Shown here in pieces: positions 1 through 9,152 of a DNA stretch of 64,000 nt; the first letter of the stretch is position 1; the number at the start of each line of letters is the position of its first letter. Below the pieces are notes generated by a model, which saw only the letters and a program-made list of their open reading frames with translations, searched no databases and was not told where the DNA came from. Origin of the DNA: Galbibacter kalidii (lineage in GTDB: Bacteria; Bacteroidota; Bacteroidia; Flavobacteriales; Flavobacteriaceae); contig NZ_JAPFGA010000006.1 of the NCBI RefSeq assembly GCF_026241135.1, forward strand, positions 64,369-128,368, in the 5' to 3' direction. A program made the position numbers and the translations under genes.

Positions 1-2098
1 TGGAATCTTTAGTGATTTCGGGATAGTCTTGTGCTACAAATGCAGTGTCGGTTTGGATATAAAATTGAACCGGATTCCTTTTCGAACTGCCAAAAAAGAT
101 ATCTTCTTTTCCATCGCCGTTAAGATCACCCACAGCCGTTGCCGGACCACGATCGGAAATTTGATACGGAATTAACTTCTGACGGTTAAAATCGGTATAG
201 TTGTTTTCCTTGTGTACAAAATCGATTCCGAGGTTATCTGGAATTTTTTCAAAGAGCCTTTCTTTTTTAGGTTTCAACACATTAAAGTTGAAGGGATCCC
301 TTTTGCTTTTAGCTTGAACAAGTAATGTTTGATTTGTAGTAACATTGTTGAGTTTTTGATAGGTATTATCGGGCCAAACAATTAATAATGAATCAACGGT
401 GGCAATTTTACCATATCCTAAATGAATAACAGGTTCCGAAGAAGCCTGGAATCCTCTTACGGTGTATAATTCTTTATACTGAACGTTTCCATCAACATAC
501 GAAAACACCTTGGTGCCAATTCCAAACGGGTTTTTTGTGTTGTTCTTAAAACGAAGTTTTAAATAGTTGCTTTTTTCATTGGTTTTGTTAATGTATAAGC
601 TGGCAGGAGCATTAATGTTGTTGGTTACTACATCCAGATCGCCATCATTATCCAGATCACCCATGGCCATGGCACCCGAAATAAGGGTGTCTTTTCCAAT
701 CCATGTTCCAGACCTGTCTGAAAAGTTCAATGAATCTGAGCCTTCAAAAATATAATTGTGGGTATTTCCACTAGGCATCATGTCCAGGGCCTTTTTATCA
801 ACCAATCTGGTATTATCAAGTTTTTTCTTAATATGCTCGTCGGATACAAATTTGATGTAATCGAGATCGTTAGGGCGTTTCGGAATTCCGTTGGAAATAA
901 ACAGATCTTGTTCGCCATCCTGATTAAAATCTTCAAACAAGGCACTCCAACTCCAGTCGGTTGCAGCAATGCCGCTTAACAATGCCGTTTCGGCATATCC
1001 TGTGCCTTGTTGATTTACCTGAAGCATATTGCGGGTAAACTGGTAGTGATAACCCAAGGCTTGGGTCCTCATTTTAAGCATCTGTGGATTGTCGTCCCCT
1101 TCAGAGGACTTTAAAACTTTTTCATCTTCGGGAAGCATGTCTAAGGATAAAAGATCGGGATAACCGTCATGATTGATATCGGCCACATCATTCCCCATAG
1201 AGAAGCGGCTGGTATGACCAAAATAGTCTTTCAGGCTTTCAGAAAAAGTACCGTCTCCATTGTTCAGATAGTAATAATCATCTTCATGAAAATCGTTACC
1301 AACATAAATATCGGGCCATCCATCCTGGTTAAAATCAGATACGGCAACACCTAATCCGTAACCATTTACCCCACCAAAAATTCCGGCTTCTTCACTTACA
1401 TCTGTGAACACCCCCCTTGGTCCCCCCTCAAGGGGGGAATTATAAATGTCGTTGCGAAGTAATTTATCACCAGTTTCATAAGTTCTCTTGTTCCGAAGAT
1501 CGACATTGCCAAAAGATTCTTGCGTATGTACGGCATGATTTAGTAGGTAAATGTCCAGGTCGCCATCTTTGTCGTAATCCAAAAATGCAGCCGACGAACT
1601 GTAAGTGTCAAAGTCCAGACCGTATTTGGCGGCACTTTCGGTAAAGGTGTTGTCTCCATTGTTGATGTAGAGTTCGTTATATCCATTAAACCCGTTAATA
1701 CCTACAACGGCACACACATAAATATCGAGTAAGCCATCGCCATTAATATCGCCCATGACGGCTCCGGTGTTCCAACTGCTGTTTCCTGCTACCCCTGCCT
1801 GTTCGGTAATATCTTCAAATTGCAAATTGCCTTTGTTGAGGTAGAGCTTGTTTTTTTCCTGATTGGATGAAAAGAAAATATCGGGCAAACCATCATTGTT
1901 AATATCACCAATAGCAACACCACCACCATTATAAAAGTAGAGGTAGTCGAGGATGTTCAATTCATCCGATTCGGTAATCTTGTTTACAAAATCGATACCT
2001 GTTTCTTCCGGAGACGGGTTAGAAAAGAGAGAACCTTCCTTTTTTCCACATCCGGTAATGGCTACAAAGAGAGTTATATATAAAAACTTTTTAATCAT
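1..2098 (-). CDS. VCBS/ASPIC repeat outer-membrane lipoprotein, first of three paralogues (C-terminus outside window)
   Basis: This reading frame is open from an ATG at 2098 to the window edge, so the ORF track (complete ORFs only) omits it. I translated it by eye, giving about 699 residues. It begins with a short lipoprotein signal (ITGC). Many calcium-binding DxDxDG repeats of the FG-GAP/VCBS type follow (for example GDINNDGLPD and DYDKDGDLD), which normally build a beta-propeller. An ASPIC/UnbV domain lies near residues 520-590, and a second propeller starts after it. It shares architecture and many motifs with the next two minus-strand genes and is probably transcribed after them. Surface ligand or protein binding is inferred; no enzyme motif was seen. 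A run of about 10 residues (IYNSPLEGGPRG) absent from both paralogues interrupts a conserved LLRND...FTDVS segment. Confidence 0.88.
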   Translation of the reverse strand, partial: MIKKFLYITLFVAITGCGKKEGSLFSNPSPEETGIDFVNKITESDELNILDYLYFYNGGGVAIGDINNDGLPDIFFSSNQEKNKLYLNKGNLQFEDITEQAGVAGNSSWNTGAVMGDINGDGLLDIYVCAVVGINGFNGYNELYINNGDNTFTESAAKYGLDFDTYSSSAAFLDYDKDGDLDIYLLNHAVHTQESFGNVDLRNKRTYETGDKLLRNDIYNSPLEGGPRGVFTDVSEEAGIFGGVNGYGLGVAVSDFNQDGWPDIYVGNDFHEDDYYYLNNGDGTFSESLKDYFGHTSRFSMGNDVADINHDGYPDLLSLDMLPEDEKVLKSSEGDDNPQMLKMRTQALGYHYQFTRNMLQVNQQGTGYAETALLSGIAATDWSWSALFEDFNQDGEQDLFISNGIPKRPNDLDYIKFVSDEHIKKKLDNTRLVDKKALDMMPSGNTHNYIFEGSDSLNFSDRSGTWIGKDTLISGAMAMGDLDNDGDLDVVTNNINAPASLYINKTNEKSNYLKLRFKNNTKNPFGIGTKVFSYVDGNVQYKELYTVRGFQASSEPVIHLGYGKIATVDSLLIVWPDNTYQKLNNVTTNQTLLVQAKSKRDPFNFNVLKPKKERLFEKIPDNLGIDFVHKENNYTDFNRQKLIPYQISDRGPATAVGDLNGDGKEDIFFGSSKRNPVQFYIQTDTAFVAQDYPEITKDS
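1408..1440. repeat. GC-rich palindromic repeat translated in frame inside the VCBS gene
   Basis: On the minus strand the core reads CCCCCCTTGAGGGGGG and is followed by ACCAAGGGGGG, giving overlapping C-run/G-run hairpins. The repeat keeps the reading frame and encodes NSPLEGGPRG. Both adjacent paralogues lack the segment, which marks it as an insertion rather than ancestral protein sequence. Confidence 0.8.
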
Positions 2099-2344: not shown

Positions 2345-5300
2345 TCAATTTTTAGAACCCACCTTTAGTTTAAAAATCTTTGGTTGATCATTATTTAATG
2401 CTACAAAAAGGTGCGTGCTACCGTTCTTATCTTTAAACGGTTTAATATGCTTTACTTCACCCCGTACAAAAAAGCCCGATTTGTTATAGTTCTGCCAATT
2501 AAAATCACCTGTTCCATCGCCGAGGAGCACACATCCGTAATTGGAATCGAGTCTTGAAAATTGTGGTTTGAATTCATAATTGTTACCACCCATTATAAGA
2601 TCTATATTGCCATCGTTGTTGATGTCCTGAGGTGTAATATCGCAAACACATGAAAACTGTACCTGACCGGGTAACGGTTTAATATCGAATTGTCCGTTAC
2701 CATTGTTTATCGCTATTACCGATTGAATGGTGGTTACCGTTTTTTGGATAGCATTGTCGGTAAGTTCCTTAGGAAAAAGTTCCTGTATCGACCTTTTGGC
2801 ATAATCTGAAGCTTTTAGGTTTTCTTTTTTTAAGGAAGATAACTGGGCAGTAAGCTCTTTTTTCATGTGGATGGGTTTGTCTTTACCGTCTATGGTATGT
2901 GTAACAATTTGTTCTATGGTACCATTATTGTCATAATCGTTAATAAACATACGCATAGGGGCATCTTTTGATGCTTTATAAGAGATATTCTCTCCCATAT
3001 TTCCCATTACAAGGTCTAAATCACCATCATTATCTACATCTATGGTTTTTACGGTATTCCACCAGCCGCCATATTCAGATAGGTTGGAAGATAATTTTCC
3101 AAGTCGCCTACCTGAGTTTTTCAAAATCATCGGGGCAGCCCAATCGCCTACAAGAACCAGATCTTTTTTATCATCACCATCGGTATCGGCCCAAATGGCG
3201 TCGGTGATCATGCCGGCATCTTTAAGATCGTAAGCTTTGCTTTCGGTTATGTCTTTAAAAGAGCCATCACCTTGGTTTTCCAGGAACAGGTGCTTCGGGT
3301 TCACTCCATAGATACCCGGTACGCTCCTCGATCCGATAAATACATCTGTATCACCATCACCATCAAAATCATAAGGGGCAATTACAGAGGTGTTGTGGAA
3401 GGTAGACGGAATTTGGCCTTCACTTTTTGTGAATTTACCATGTCCGTTGTTTAAATAGAGTCTTGTAACATATTTGTTGGCATCGGATTCTTCGTTTCCT
3501 CCGGTGCCCACCATTAGATCAAGATCGCCATCATTATCGGTATCAAAAAAGGCAGATGAAGTATCTTCTAATTCTTGGTCGTTTTTAAAAGCTGTTTGCT
3601 GCGATTTTACAAGATTGCCATTACCCGAATTTAAGTATAGCACTCCGGCCTGACCTTTGGCACCGCCAACAAATACATCTTCGTTACCGTCGTTATTTAC
3701 ATCGGCTACAGAAAGCGCTGGCCCTTCTTGGGAAGTCATGGTAGAGATAAGTCCTTCGTAATCAAAATCTACAAAATCATTTTCTTGATGTGCTTCTATG
3801 TTTCCAGAAGCAACTTCCGTTAGGTAGGTTTCCACTTTTTGTTTAACCGGAATGGTATATTTTTCTTCGGCATCGGACTGTTTTAGTTCGATAAGTTGAT
3901 TCACCTGAACATTGGTTAACTTTTGGGTATGGTCGTTAGGCCAGATTACCTTAATGGAATCGATGGTTTTGGTTTCTCCAACACCTATGGTCATGATATG
4001 TTCCATAGTAGATTGAAATCCTCTGTACGGAATCAGCTCTTGCAAGATGGTTTTTTCTCCCATATAAAGTTTCACCGTTGTCCCGATGGCAAATTTGTTC
4101 TTTTCGCTTCCTTCAAATTTTAGTTTTATGTAATTATTGTCACTAAGTTTTTCAGAGTTGTTTTTGTATACAAACGACTCCATGTTTACGTTGTTGACAA
4201 TCAGATCGAGGTCACCATCATTATCGAGGTCGCCATAGGCTACACCATTCGACATGCTCGGAGTTCCTAAGCCCCAGTTATCGGCAACATTGGTAAACCT
4301 AAGGGCGCTATTGTTTTTAAAGGCATAATTAGGAATGGGTTTCCTTGGCATTTTGTTAATAATAGAATCAATAGCCTGTTTTTTACCGGTAAGCGCCATT
4401 TTCTGGATGATCTCATTCGCAAAGAAATTCACAAAATCGATGTCGGTAAGATCATGATTTATACCGTTGGTTACATAGATGTCCCTATACCCGTCATTAT
4501 CCATATCAAATATCAGTCCTGCCCAACTCCAGTCTGTTTTGGCAACACCGCTATAGTAGGCCACTTCAGAAAAACCATTATTACCATTATTAAGCTGAAG
4601 TGTGTTTTGGATGTATTGTTGATAAAAGTCTTTACTTTGTTTAAGCTTAAATACGTCATAGCCTTCAAACTCCATAACCGATTTCACCCTTTCATCTCCT
4701 TCGGGAAGCATATCGGTAATAAAAATATCATTTAATCCATCATTGTTAATGTCTGCTATGTCCACACCCATGGCAGAAAGACACAAGCGTGAAGTCCATT
4801 CTTTGATTTCTTCATTAAAAGTGCCATCTTTTTGATTGATATAGAGGTAATCGCGTTCATAAAAGTCGTTAGATACATAAATATCGGGGTAGTTATCTTC
4901 ATTTATATCGGTGATCATGACCCCTAACCCAAAACCGATAAGACTTCCGTAAATCCCGGCCTCTTCACTGGCATCCGTAAATTTGCCATTGTCGTTTCTA
5001 AGCAACATATCACCAACACCTTTAAAAACATCAGGAATACCTTCCCAGTCCTGGGCTCTGGTTTCCCGTTGTTCGGCATATCCGAGGCTACTTACCGGAA
5101 TATTACTATTGTTCAAAATGTAGGCATCCAGATCACCATCCTTGTCATAATCAAAAAAGGCAGCATGTGTGGTAAATCCACTTTTTGCTAAATTGTATGC
5201 TGCGGCTTTTTCGGTAAAGGTCAGGTCGCCGTTGTTGATGTAGAGGTCGTTGTCGTGATTATTCCCTTCCATATTCCCCGCATTGGCCACATAGATATCC

Positions 5301-5728
5301 AGAAGCCCATCACTGTTGATGTCCACCATGGTTACTCCGGTAGACCAAGGCTTATTTCCGCCAACCCCAGCACTTTCCGTAATGTCTTCAAACTTAAAAT
5401 CGCCTTTGTTGAGAAATAGTTTGTTTTGTCCCATATTGGCGGTAAGGTAGATGTCCGGCAAGCCGTCATTATTAATATCGCCAATAGCAACGCCACCACC
5501 GTTGTAGAAATTTCTGTATTTAAAAATATTGAAGTCTTTCTGGTTTTCTATTTCGTTTATGAAATCGATACCGCTTTCTTCCGAAGAAACTAGTGTAAAA
5601 AGCGTTTCTTTTTCATTTTTCACCTCTTCTTGAGCGTCTTCTTTTTTACATGAAAAAAGTATACAGAACAGACTAAGGCTTAAAACTGTCTTTATTACAA
5701 AGGATTGGATGTTCATTTTATGGTTCAT
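2345..5728 (-). CDS. VCBS/ASPIC repeat outer-membrane lipoprotein, second paralogue
   Basis: 1127 residues. The N-terminus has a hydrophobic signal ending in FSC, with the lipidated cysteine near residue 27, followed by acidic residues suited to surface export. Residues about 55-480 carry repeated DINNDGLPDIY/DYDKDGDLD calcium loops (first propeller). Residues about 540-610 carry an ASPIC/UnbV domain (GTTVKLYMGEKT, YRGFQST, VIWPNDHTQ). Residues about 660-1120 form a second set of FG-GAP repeats. The start codon overlaps the stop of the upstream gene in an ATGA arrangement, so the two are translationally coupled. Such proteins often accompany SusC/SusD pairs in Flavobacteriia; binding of a glycan or other surface ligand is inference. 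A 246-bp gap separates it from the next paralogue. Confidence 0.9.
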   Translation of the reverse strand: MNHKMNIQSFVIKTVLSLSLFCILFSCKKEDAQEEVKNEKETLFTLVSSEESGIDFINEIENQKDFNIFKYRNFYNGGGVAIGDINNDGLPDIYLTANMGQNKLFLNKGDFKFEDITESAGVGGNKPWSTGVTMVDINSDGLLDIYVANAGNMEGNNHDNDLYINNGDLTFTEKAAAYNLAKSGFTTHAAFFDYDKDGDLDAYILNNSNIPVSSLGYAEQRETRAQDWEGIPDVFKGVGDMLLRNDNGKFTDASEEAGIYGSLIGFGLGVMITDINEDNYPDIYVSNDFYERDYLYINQKDGTFNEEIKEWTSRLCLSAMGVDIADINNDGLNDIFITDMLPEGDERVKSVMEFEGYDVFKLKQSKDFYQQYIQNTLQLNNGNNGFSEVAYYSGVAKTDWSWAGLIFDMDNDGYRDIYVTNGINHDLTDIDFVNFFANEIIQKMALTGKKQAIDSIINKMPRKPIPNYAFKNNSALRFTNVADNWGLGTPSMSNGVAYGDLDNDGDLDLIVNNVNMESFVYKNNSEKLSDNNYIKLKFEGSEKNKFAIGTTVKLYMGEKTILQELIPYRGFQSTMEHIMTIGVGETKTIDSIKVIWPNDHTQKLTNVQVNQLIELKQSDAEEKYTIPVKQKVETYLTEVASGNIEAHQENDFVDFDYEGLISTMTSQEGPALSVADVNNDGNEDVFVGGAKGQAGVLYLNSGNGNLVKSQQTAFKNDQELEDTSSAFFDTDNDGDLDLMVGTGGNEESDANKYVTRLYLNNGHGKFTKSEGQIPSTFHNTSVIAPYDFDGDGDTDVFIGSRSVPGIYGVNPKHLFLENQGDGSFKDITESKAYDLKDAGMITDAIWADTDGDDKKDLVLVGDWAAPMILKNSGRRLGKLSSNLSEYGGWWNTVKTIDVDNDGDLDLVMGNMGENISYKASKDAPMRMFINDYDNNGTIEQIVTHTIDGKDKPIHMKKELTAQLSSLKKENLKASDYAKRSIQELFPKELTDNAIQKTVTTIQSVIAINNGNGQFDIKPLPGQVQFSCVCDITPQDINNDGNIDLIMGGNNYEFKPQFSRLDSNYGCVLLGDGTGDFNWQNYNKSGFFVRGEVKHIKPFKDKNGSTHLFVALNNDQPKIFKLKVGSKN

Positions 5729-8700
5729 TCTTGTGTTTTTTTAAGAAAAACAGGTTTGTTGTTATTTATGGTAATGATATAGTTGATCGTATCTTGAATA
5801 CTGATGGTATTGATATCCCTTGCCGGACCCGGAATGTCAAAACCTTGTGACCGAAGTACTTCAAAAAAACCGTTTTGGTCATTCAGCAGAACCAAACCAT
5901 GCAGGGCATCAAGTCTTCCCAGTTGCGTACTTATTTCATAGTTGTTGCCCACGAGTAACAGATCTTCATAACCATCATTGTCGAAATCGTCTTTTTGAAT
6001 ATCGAAGATACTGGATGTTTGTGCCATGAACGGAAGTCTATGCGCTGTAAAAGTACCGTCTCCGTTATTTTCAAAATAAATCGAAGCTAATTCGAACACT
6101 TGTTTTTTGTATGCTTTTTCTATTTTTTCCTTCGGAAAGAGTTCATTGAATGCCGCTGAAGCAAAATCAGAATAGGAAAGGAATTTTTTGTTTAGCATCG
6201 GAATTTGTTTGACGAGTTCGTCTTTTGATGAAAAGGTGGTTTCGGTTCCCTGATAAAAATAAGTAACCACAGGTTCTACATTACCGTTGTCGTCAAAATC
6301 GTTGCTATATAGAGTGATAGGCTCTTCTTTTGAAGCTTTCAAACGGGTGTTCAATCCCCAATTCCCGGCCAAAATATCGATATCCCCATCTTTGTCAAAA
6401 TCGCCTGCTTCAACAGTATTCCACCAACCGTGTGTTTTGTCAAGCGAGTTGCTTTGCAGGCTTAGTTTTTTGCCGTCGTTGATAAAAACGGAAATGGACA
6501 TCCAGTGCCCAACAGCCACAGCGTCTTTAAAACCATCATTGTTCAAATCGATCCATTTCAGGTCCTGAACCAAGCCGATTTCCTGAAATTCTGGGGCGTA
6601 AGATGATGTAATGTCTTTAAATATTCCTTTTCCGTTATTCTGAAAGAGAAACTGTTTAGGGGTTTTCCCAAATTCCCTCGGAATCCCGTTGGAGGTTATG
6701 CAAAGGTCAAGGTCACCGTCATTATCCAGATCGACTGCGGTAATGGTTGAGGCGTTTATGGACAAACTTGTAAATTGAATGCTGTCCTTAACCATTTGCC
6801 CGCTTTCATTAAAATAGAGTCGGGGGGAAAGCGGTTTTCCTGTAGTGAATTCATTTCCTCCACTAACAACAACCAAATCCTGATCGCCATCGCCATCAGC
6901 ATCAAAAAAGAGATTGTCCACATCCTCGCTGATCGCATCTTTTTCGAATATCTCGTTTTGGGTTGCTTCAAAAGTTCCGTTTGCTTGTTGAAGGTACAAA
7001 GTTGAGGCTTGCGTTTTGGCTCCACCAATGAATAGGTCTTCCAAACCGTTATTGTTTACATCGGCAACAGTAGTTTTTGGACCTTGATTGGTGTTGGCAA
7101 AAGGAATCAATGGATCCCGATTAAACTCAATAGAGGCGAAATCTTTGTGTTTGAAATCAATTGGAGAAGCTATATTTTTTAATAAACGGGAGTTTTTTGC
7201 ACTATTTTTCAGGGAGTAATTCCCTTGAGCGTTTTTATAATCAGCTAAGAAGACAGTATCTACCATTTGCTCATTTATTTTTTCATATTTCCCATCCGGC
7301 CAGATAATGTGTACAGAGTCTATTGTAGCGGTTTTCCCCAATCCAAAATGAAGTTCAGGAGTTACTGCCGACATAAATCCGCGGGATGTGTAGTTCTCTC
7401 CGGTTATTGTTTGTGAATCTGCAAAAACAACTACTTTGCTTCCTATCCCGAAATGGTTTTTATCACTTCCTTTAAATTTTATCTTTAGAAAATGATTGTT
7501 CGGAAATACTTGTTCAGCATTATTTTTAAGGATCATAGCCGGTTCGTTCACATTGTTGACTATCACATCCAAATCACCGTCATTGTCCAGATCGGCATAA
7601 GCACTTCCGTTGCTATACGATGGAATTTTGGCAAACCATTCATCGGTCATATCAGTAAAAGTGTGGTCGCCATTGTTTTTGAACATATAATTTGGGACGT
7701 GTTTGGCAGGGATTTTATCAATAAAAGCCATATCTTCTCGGTTCATGCCTTTACTTAGGCGTTTTTGAATATGTTCGTTGGCAATAAAGCTGATAAAATC
7801 CATGTCATTGGTAGCTCCTAAAATGCCATTGGACACAAACACATCTTTAAACCCGTCGTTATCAAGGTCGGCCAAAAGAGGAGCCCAGGACCATTCCGTT
7901 GAAGCAAGGCCGCTTAAAAAAGCCGTTTCAGTAAAATGACCACCGCCGTTGTTGATATGAAGGGCGTTTTGCATGAATTGAGGAGCGTAACCGTTTTTTA
8001 GATAACCGCTGTAGGTTTGAAAGTTGTATTCCGTTCCCGAAGTTTTAAAACTTTTTAGATCTTCCGGGAGCATATCAACCGAAATAATATCGGAAAGGCC
8101 ATCATTGTTAATATCGGCAATGTCGTTTCCCATGGAAAAATGGGTGGTATGCCCAAATTTTGTTTCGTCGGAAGCAATTACTTCTTTAAAAGCACCATTT
8201 TTTTGATTGATATAGAGGTAATCGTTTTCAAAGAAATCATTTCCGATGTAGATGTCGGGATAGCTGTCGTTGTTGATATCGGAAATTGAAATTCCGAGCC
8301 CGTACCCAATACCTCCTTGATGTATGCCCGCTTCTTGGGAAACGTCTGTAAAGAGTCCGTCGTCGTTCCTTAGGAGTTTGTCGCCGGCAAGGATGTCTGT
8401 TTCATGTCTTTTTTTTCCGCTTCCATAAGTTCGGTTAGGGTGTAGGGAATGATTGAGTAAATACATATCCAGATCGCCGTCAAGGTCGTAGTCAAAAAAA
8501 GCGGCTTGCGTGGCATAGGATTGGATATCGAGGCCGTATTTTTCAGATTCTTCTTTGAATTGCGGAAGCTTCCCAGCATTTAATCCCTGATTTACGTAGA
8601 GTAAATTATGACTGTTTTTTTCAGAAAGACTTCCTACCCTGCAGATATAAATGTCCATCCATCCATCATTATTGATATCAACAACAGTAACCCCGGTTGT

Positions 8701-9036
8701 CCAATTTTCAGCATTGGAGATTCCTGTTTTTTCTGTAATGTCTGTAAATTGAAAATCGCCCTTGTTCAAATAGAGTTTGTCTGCAGTTTGATTGCCTGTA
8801 AAATACAAGTCTGTTAAACCATCGTTGTTAAAATCACTTGCGGCGATACCTGCGCCGTTGTAATAGTAGAGATAGTTAAGGATGTTGAGTTCAGGAGTAT
8901 TGGTGAGTTCATTTTTAAAACTGATCCCCGTTTCACTTTCATTTAATTGTGTAAAAAGCCGTTCCTTTTCTGTCGTACAGGAGAGGAAGAATAAAAAAGA
9001 AGGGAGTATTATTTTTACGGCTTTTTTTATGATCAT
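5725..9036 (-). CDS. VCBS/ASPIC repeat outer-membrane lipoprotein, third paralogue (first in operon)
   Basis: About 1103 residues. The ORF track starts at 9096, but I chose the internal ATG at 9036 because it begins a clean lipoprotein signal (MIIKKAVKI...FFLSC, cysteine 20); the extra 20 upstream residues have no signal character. The layout matches its neighbours: an N-terminal propeller of DFNNDGLTDLY/DYDLDGDLD repeats, an ASPIC/UnbV domain near residues 520-590 (GIGSKVVVFAD, YTSRGFMSA, IIWPDGKYE), then a second propeller. It lies at the head of the three-gene series and overlaps the next start by 4 bp. It faces away from the histidine kinase gene across a 308-bp gap. The ligand is unknown. 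Confidence 0.9.
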   Translation of the reverse strand: MIIKKAVKIILPSFLFFLSCTTEKERLFTQLNESETGISFKNELTNTPELNILNYLYYYNGAGIAASDFNNDGLTDLYFTGNQTADKLYLNKGDFQFTDITEKTGISNAENWTTGVTVVDINNDGWMDIYICRVGSLSEKNSHNLLYVNQGLNAGKLPQFKEESEKYGLDIQSYATQAAFFDYDLDGDLDMYLLNHSLHPNRTYGSGKKRHETDILAGDKLLRNDDGLFTDVSQEAGIHQGGIGYGLGISISDINNDSYPDIYIGNDFFENDYLYINQKNGAFKEVIASDETKFGHTTHFSMGNDIADINNDGLSDIISVDMLPEDLKSFKTSGTEYNFQTYSGYLKNGYAPQFMQNALHINNGGGHFTETAFLSGLASTEWSWAPLLADLDNDGFKDVFVSNGILGATNDMDFISFIANEHIQKRLSKGMNREDMAFIDKIPAKHVPNYMFKNNGDHTFTDMTDEWFAKIPSYSNGSAYADLDNDGDLDVIVNNVNEPAMILKNNAEQVFPNNHFLKIKFKGSDKNHFGIGSKVVVFADSQTITGENYTSRGFMSAVTPELHFGLGKTATIDSVHIIWPDGKYEKINEQMVDTVFLADYKNAQGNYSLKNSAKNSRLLKNIASPIDFKHKDFASIEFNRDPLIPFANTNQGPKTTVADVNNNGLEDLFIGGAKTQASTLYLQQANGTFEATQNEIFEKDAISEDVDNLFFDADGDGDQDLVVVSGGNEFTTGKPLSPRLYFNESGQMVKDSIQFTSLSINASTITAVDLDNDGDLDLCITSNGIPREFGKTPKQFLFQNNGKGIFKDITSSYAPEFQEIGLVQDLKWIDLNNDGFKDAVAVGHWMSISVFINDGKKLSLQSNSLDKTHGWWNTVEAGDFDKDGDIDILAGNWGLNTRLKASKEEPITLYSNDFDDNGNVEPVVTYFYQGTETTFSSKDELVKQIPMLNKKFLSYSDFASAAFNELFPKEKIEKAYKKQVFELASIYFENNGDGTFTAHRLPFMAQTSSIFDIQKDDFDNDGYEDLLLVGNNYEISTQLGRLDALHGLVLLNDQNGFFEVLRSQGFDIPGPARDINTISIQDTINYIITINNNKPVFLKKTQE

Positions 9037-9152
9037 TAACGGAATGTGCTTTTTTGTAATTATACGAACAAATACAACATTACAATCGGTCAACACTCGG
9101 TTTGTTGTTTCATATGCTTATATTTATTGTTTGGGTTGTTTCACCAACCAAA

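Follow-up and report, generated by a model that had tools for sequence, protein, structure and literature searches.

In a stretch of 64,000 nucleotides of the Galbibacter kalidii genome (hereafter the window), a C-run/G-run palindrome lies in frame within a protein gene, raising the question of whether an intergenic type of repeat has become protein sequence, and of what brought it there.

An in-frame palindrome in a propeller gene

The features that bear on this question are:

2..2098, minus strand: lipoprotein gene with FG-GAP/VCBS propeller and UnbV_ASPIC domains (Pfam), cut by the window edge
1408..1442, minus strand: palindromic element AATTCCCCCCTTGAGGGGGGACCAAGGGGGGTGTT, right-end type B', giving NSPLEGGPRGV in frame as part of the insert IYNSPLEGGPRGV
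1421..1438, minus strand: 18-base core TTCCCCCCTTGAGGGGGG of the element
2345..5728, minus strand: paralogue 1, 1127 residues, empty site LLRND-NGKFTDASEEAG
5725..9096, minus strand: paralogue 2, 1123 residues, empty site LLRND-DGLFTDVSQEAG

The whole open frame of the host gene in the genome is 1153 residues. Positions 1405-1443 of the window lie, on the minus strand of the gene, inside ...CGCAACGAC-ATTTATAATTCCCCCCTTGAGGGGGGACCAAGGGGGGTGTTCACAGATGTA..., and the translation across the insert reads LLRND-IYNSPLEGGPRGV-FTDVSEEAG, with NDIYNSPLEGGPR as the predicted tryptic peptide for it. Both paralogues adjoin the window gene and carry a short turn in place of the insert. At the DNA level, 9 nt (e.g. 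AATGGTACA) are exchanged for 39 nt containing AATTCCCCCCTTGAGGGGGGACCAAGGGGGGTGTT, a net gain of 30 nt; the insertion is therefore not clean, and no target duplication was found at the site. The initial annotation had described an in-frame palindrome of about ten extra codons, and this is confirmed by the net gain of ten codons relative to paralogues without the insert.

The short turn is also present in 6/6 orthologues of 72–75% identity, five from the same genus (G002-G006) and one from a sister genus (G007), as well as in more distant orthologues. The latter were checked for the same residues without the palindrome, and the orthologues lack the residues. Among the sequences compared, the insertion in the window gene is found in this lineage only. 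In a distant Cytophagales VCBS protein with 41% identity to the window protein, this turn also holds an insert, formed by the same palindrome in another reading frame (IPPLRGARGV).

An AlphaFold2 model of the window protein (mean pLDDT of 71), for which the closest solved fold is CRTAC1, has the insert at a propeller hairpin turn that joins strands 191-195 and 210-212. Residues 201-205, at the tip of the insert, have pLDDT values <50, and the modelled tip is probably disordered. Selection of the insert as a functional loop of a surface propeller, such as a ligand, glycan or protease site, would suit both the surface-type window protein and the recurrence of an insert at the same turn in the distant Cytophagales homologue. 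However, the two insert peptides are unlike each other, since the same palindrome is read in different frames, the tip is of low confidence in the model, and the same peptides are found in unrelated cytosolic enzymes. We regard selection for such a function as highly improbable, with the insert probably tolerated rather than useful.

The palindrome is well beyond chance expectation, as a second copy of the element is present in the same genome (91% identity over 33 nt, E = 1.4e-5) and the exact 18-mer occurs in at least 118 stretches of other genomes; the core pattern CCCCCTNNAGGGGG, allowing ≤1 mismatch, is expected 0.09 times by chance in the window. Almost no weight can be given to an accidental transcription terminator or RNA hairpin inside the gene, or to a chance C-run/G-run. 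A 9-bp hairpin is possible on the strand and there are weak, sub-threshold matches to the Rfam family whalefall-1, however the folding z-score of just approximately −1.1 to −1.7 is not informative, and the Rfam scores fall far under the gathering cut-off, with no Rfam family over threshold for the palindrome region. Furthermore, orthologues lack the element, and many genomes share the exact core together with its AATT and GGGGTGTT flanks. The whalefall-1 matches, at window positions 1412-1438, score 17.9 and 13.9 bits on both strands against a cut-off of 37, and this family might be worth checking as a DNA palindrome instead of an RNA.

A dispersed palindrome family

A loose pattern, CCCC..GGGG..GGGG, gives 103 matches in the genome of the window (G000), compared with 13 for a reversed control, and these collapse to approximately 50 C-run/G-run elements of a few subtypes:

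Subtype A: CCCCTCCTTTGGAGGGGTTGGGGGAGG
Subtype B: TGTCCCCTTGAGGGGACTTTAGGGGTGTT
Subtype B', the window type: AATTCCCCCCTTGAGGGGGGACCAAGGGGGGTGTT
Subtype C: CCCCCTTCGGGGGAGCTGGAGGGGG

All seven type B copies lie outside long open frames, and both type B' copies lie in genes, namely the window gene and a 1621-residue frame in which an eCIS-type DUF4157 motif was recognised by eye. Approximately 18 elements are in frame in approximately 13 long open frames, with most of the host genes named by Pfam; they include HemC, a methylmalonyl-CoA mutase fusion, LeuRS, urocanase (two), GH115, PurL and IleRS (three). The elements are dispersed both between genes and in frame within them and form an element family, as do the Rickettsia palindromic elements. 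The earlier proposal that a repeat of intergenic type had turned into protein is supported by this largely intergenic family, together with the empty sites in paralogues and orthologues. The LeuRS of this genome (L091) has a second C-run palindrome peptide, TTPPLEGLGED, and also the peptide SLCHAEPVEAS, probably a different dispersed repeat in translation.

The search of relatives suggested in the initial annotation extends the family beyond the genus. In a set of one genome per species, the at least 118 genomic stretches with the exact core TTCCCCCCTTGAGGGGGG come from Flavobacteriaceae, Cytophagales, Bacteroidales, Desulfobacteraceae, KSB1, Magasanikbacteria and others, so that the core is present in Bacteroidota, Desulfobacterota, KSB1 and Patescibacteria, and it is usually followed by a GGGGGGTGTT tail. 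A longer exact pattern had no match over the genome contigs, the shorter 18-mer being the one that matched. The element is therefore not limited to one lineage. In Arenibacter, Muricauda and Aureibaculum, it lies in frame at about the same site of LeuRS.

Palindromes bracket DUF559 genes

A layout repeated in several phyla consists of a left palindrome whose tail points to the gene, a spacer of ~31 bp, a DUF559 gene and an inverted right palindrome. Palindromes of the window type bracket DUF559 at L306, L316, L277, L261, L155 and L152, with the left palindrome 31 bp ahead of the DUF559 domain at L316 and L277, and the exact 18-mer at the DUF559 gene of L261. L316 is a Desulfoferrobacter locus and L155 is from genome G145. 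At L306, the left end is of type B and the right end is of type B' with the 18-mer of the window, both of these subtypes being found solo in G000. In the congener G004, palindrome pairs flank a free DUF559 gene (C1:452885-453241).

Hairpins with C-/G-rich arms are found within 200 bp on the left of 31/46 and on the right of 28/46 free DUF559 genes, compared with a background of 4% expected from the same loci at >500 bp distance (p ~1e-32 and ~1e-27 respectively), with no hairpin detected on either side of 8/46. All 71 DUF559 genes were also tallied; those embedded in host genes show similar flanking hairpins with a p value that is overstated, since the embedded genes are partly orthologous.

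DUF559 domains within host proteins

DUF559 (PF04480) is found in 72 of 149 family genomes, often within longer host frames, although the weakest matches cover the C-terminal third only and probably represent another protein family. In the IleRS of G000 (L113:2405-6268), two palindromes bracket an in-frame DUF559 domain of approximately 110 residues (Pfam E = 3.9e-33), which is matched by the solved endonuclease-like protein 3hrl, and a third palindrome insert lies closer to the N-terminus. Of the six congeners searched, only G005 has this DUF559 insert as well; in the other five, and in eight further genomes tested, residues ~642-783 of IleRS are missing. The IleRS of G003 (L363), which is without DUF559, retains GGGGGGGGCTTTTTCCCC at precisely the place where the G000/G005 insert has its right junction, resembling an excision or deletion scar.

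In representatives analysed with Pfam, LeuRS, MetH and RecG also contain an in-frame DUF559, and HemD, QueG and CutC carry one as an in-frame upstream fusion. In nine DUF559-carrying proteins the frame is continuous and Pfam gives only host domains and DUF559-like nuclease models. Of 25 embedded domains, 24-25 retain residues D51, E62, D64 and H68, and comparison of the embedded DUF559 of G000 and G005 gives a dN of 0.11 (dS ~2.9, saturated). Given the conserved residues and this dN, purifying selection appears to act on the embedded domain. In Caulobacter, the DUF559 protein VsrA is a Vsr-like nuclease that causes an SOS response in the absence of a solitary methyltransferase (PMC12907096).

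DUF559 and Y1 transposases as correlates of palindrome richness

Across 149 family genomes from 148 genera, with statistics uncorrected for phylogeny, DUF559 is present in 25/26 palindrome-rich Flavobacteriaceae compared with 29/123 of the rest (Fisher p = 2e-12), and Y1 transposases in 21/26 compared with 38/123 (p = 4e-6). The association with DUF559 holds in both Y1-positive and Y1-negative strata, and within DUF559-positive genomes Y1/RAYT co-occurs with palindrome richness at p = 0.018. DUF559 is the stronger correlate of palindrome richness. One genome, G163, is an exception, being palindrome-rich (25 matches) with one Y1 match and no DUF559 match.

These figures bear on the suggestion that Y1/RAYT (TnpA_REP) proteins move the palindromes, which would then be ordinary REPs, with DUF559 genes as passengers that insert at REP palindromes. 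The tracking of palindrome richness by Y1 genes, their presence in G000, and the atypical REPs of Bacteroidetes Y1 subclasses (PMC6006769) are in keeping with this suggestion, however DUF559 correlates better, and G044, G048 and G093 are palindrome-rich with no Y1 match. Additionally, the ends around DUF559 lie in opposite orientation and are not always of one subtype (B and B' at L306), as befits element ends rather than one split target. The single RAYT-like gene inspected in G000 (L112:4500-5500; SNHVH..YIHFNP) is flanked by a palindrome of its own, CTCCGCAAAGTC..GACTTTGCGGAG, and not by the C-run family. This different palindrome and the weaker Y1 correlation count against RAYT as the mover, and we consider the passenger account unlikely. 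No C-run palindrome was found near the other two of the three Y1 loci inspected in G000, and the gene adjoining the RAYT-like gene has two C-run palindromes in frame.

A proposed DUF559-associated element

The window insert is, in our view, likely to be the solo end of a small mobile element associated with DUF559. The full element would consist of a gene of approximately 128 codons for DUF559, a Vsr-like PD-(D/E)XK nuclease, flanked by a pair of inverted C-run/G-run palindromes, with both GGGGTGTT tails facing the gene. Single palindromes, mostly between genes, would be non-autonomous copies or remnants, much as REPs or MITEs are. The nuclease would probably cut or nick at or near palindromes, with repair copying the element into breaks. 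Since the palindrome encodes a short Gly/Pro-rich loop and most of its frames are open, copies in surface turns with a length divisible by three would survive as protein, and the copy in the window gene sits where a beta-hairpin of the FG-GAP propeller turns.

Mobilisation of the palindromes by DUF559 is inferred, and we give it about an even chance; its mode, and the continued working of the host protein, are inferred likewise. The genome of the window has one full DUF559, that inside IleRS, and as its bracketing palindromes are of subtypes A/C there is no B/B' partner there now. This counts against the proposal, as do the palindrome-rich G163, the co-occurrence of Y1/RAYT genes, the 8/46 free DUF559 genes with no detected hairpin and the unclean insertion in the window gene. 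There is also about an even chance that these elements form a so far unnamed class of prokaryotic mobile element, present in several phyla, in which a minimal DUF559 (Vsr-like) gene ending in palindromes would insert unspliced and in frame into conserved essential genes (LeuRS, IleRS, MetH, RecG) and seed genomes with solo palindromes that become protein segments.

Significance and comparison with known systems

To our knowledge, most protein-coding palindromes described so far come from Rickettsia, Wolbachia and certain genomes rich in REPs, with no clear mover. Beyond what was first noted at this locus, the analysis adds the spread across phyla, the partnership with DUF559 and many further in-frame copies in the same genome, and this wider nuclease-linked, cross-phylum, in-frame palindromic system is a more interesting result than the single insert. 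With a cross-phylum palindrome now linked to a specific nuclease family, the entry of repeats into genes can be put to the test using a single small enzyme and short DNA as its substrate. An apparently unspliced nuclease domain within tRNA synthetases also bears on annotation, protein evolution and mobile-element biology. In the open-access full text searched, we found no report tying DUF559 to palindromes or describing DUF559 inserted in tRNA synthetases.

The likeness to Rickettsia palindromic elements (RPEs) drawn in the initial annotation holds for behaviour and fails for sequence. RPEs are found in frame in protein genes (Ogata et al. 2000, 2002, reviewed in PMC2229807), and both they and the present elements are dispersed palindromic repeats, in frame within conserved protein genes and probably neutral. 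However, RPEs are 105-146 bp long, have a Rickettsia-specific sequence and have no known partner gene, whereas the element here has C/G-run arms and a length of ~35 bp, is found across phyla, and is probably partnered by a DUF559 nuclease gene.

Similar to REPs and their RAYTs (PMC3733652, PMC6006769), the element is a short one-tailed palindrome, present singly or in inverted pairs, with a nuclease gene as partner, and REPs too are mostly intergenic with some in frame in genes, intragenic GTAG/CGTC REPs being reported from several genomes, tRNA synthetases included (PMC3733652). In contrast to these REPs, the tetranucleotide is absent here, the ends being AATT and GGGGTGTT, and the associated nuclease is a PD-(D/E)XK DUF559 protein, not an HUH Y1 transposase.

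Homing endonuclease genes likewise place a selfish nuclease in conserved host genes, patchily among close relatives, however they are found in introns, in inteins or free-standing, whereas the DUF559 here has no intein or intron noted around it and, as far as Pfam shows for splicing domains, apparently stays in the protein, in frame and with palindromes on both sides. The protein itself resembles DUF559/Vsr-like endonucleases (PF04480; Caulobacter VsrA, PMC12907096; PDB 3hrl), with which it shares the domain and the conserved acidic and histidine residues; these are described as free genes, whereas here the nuclease appears as a mobile-looking insert with palindromic ends.
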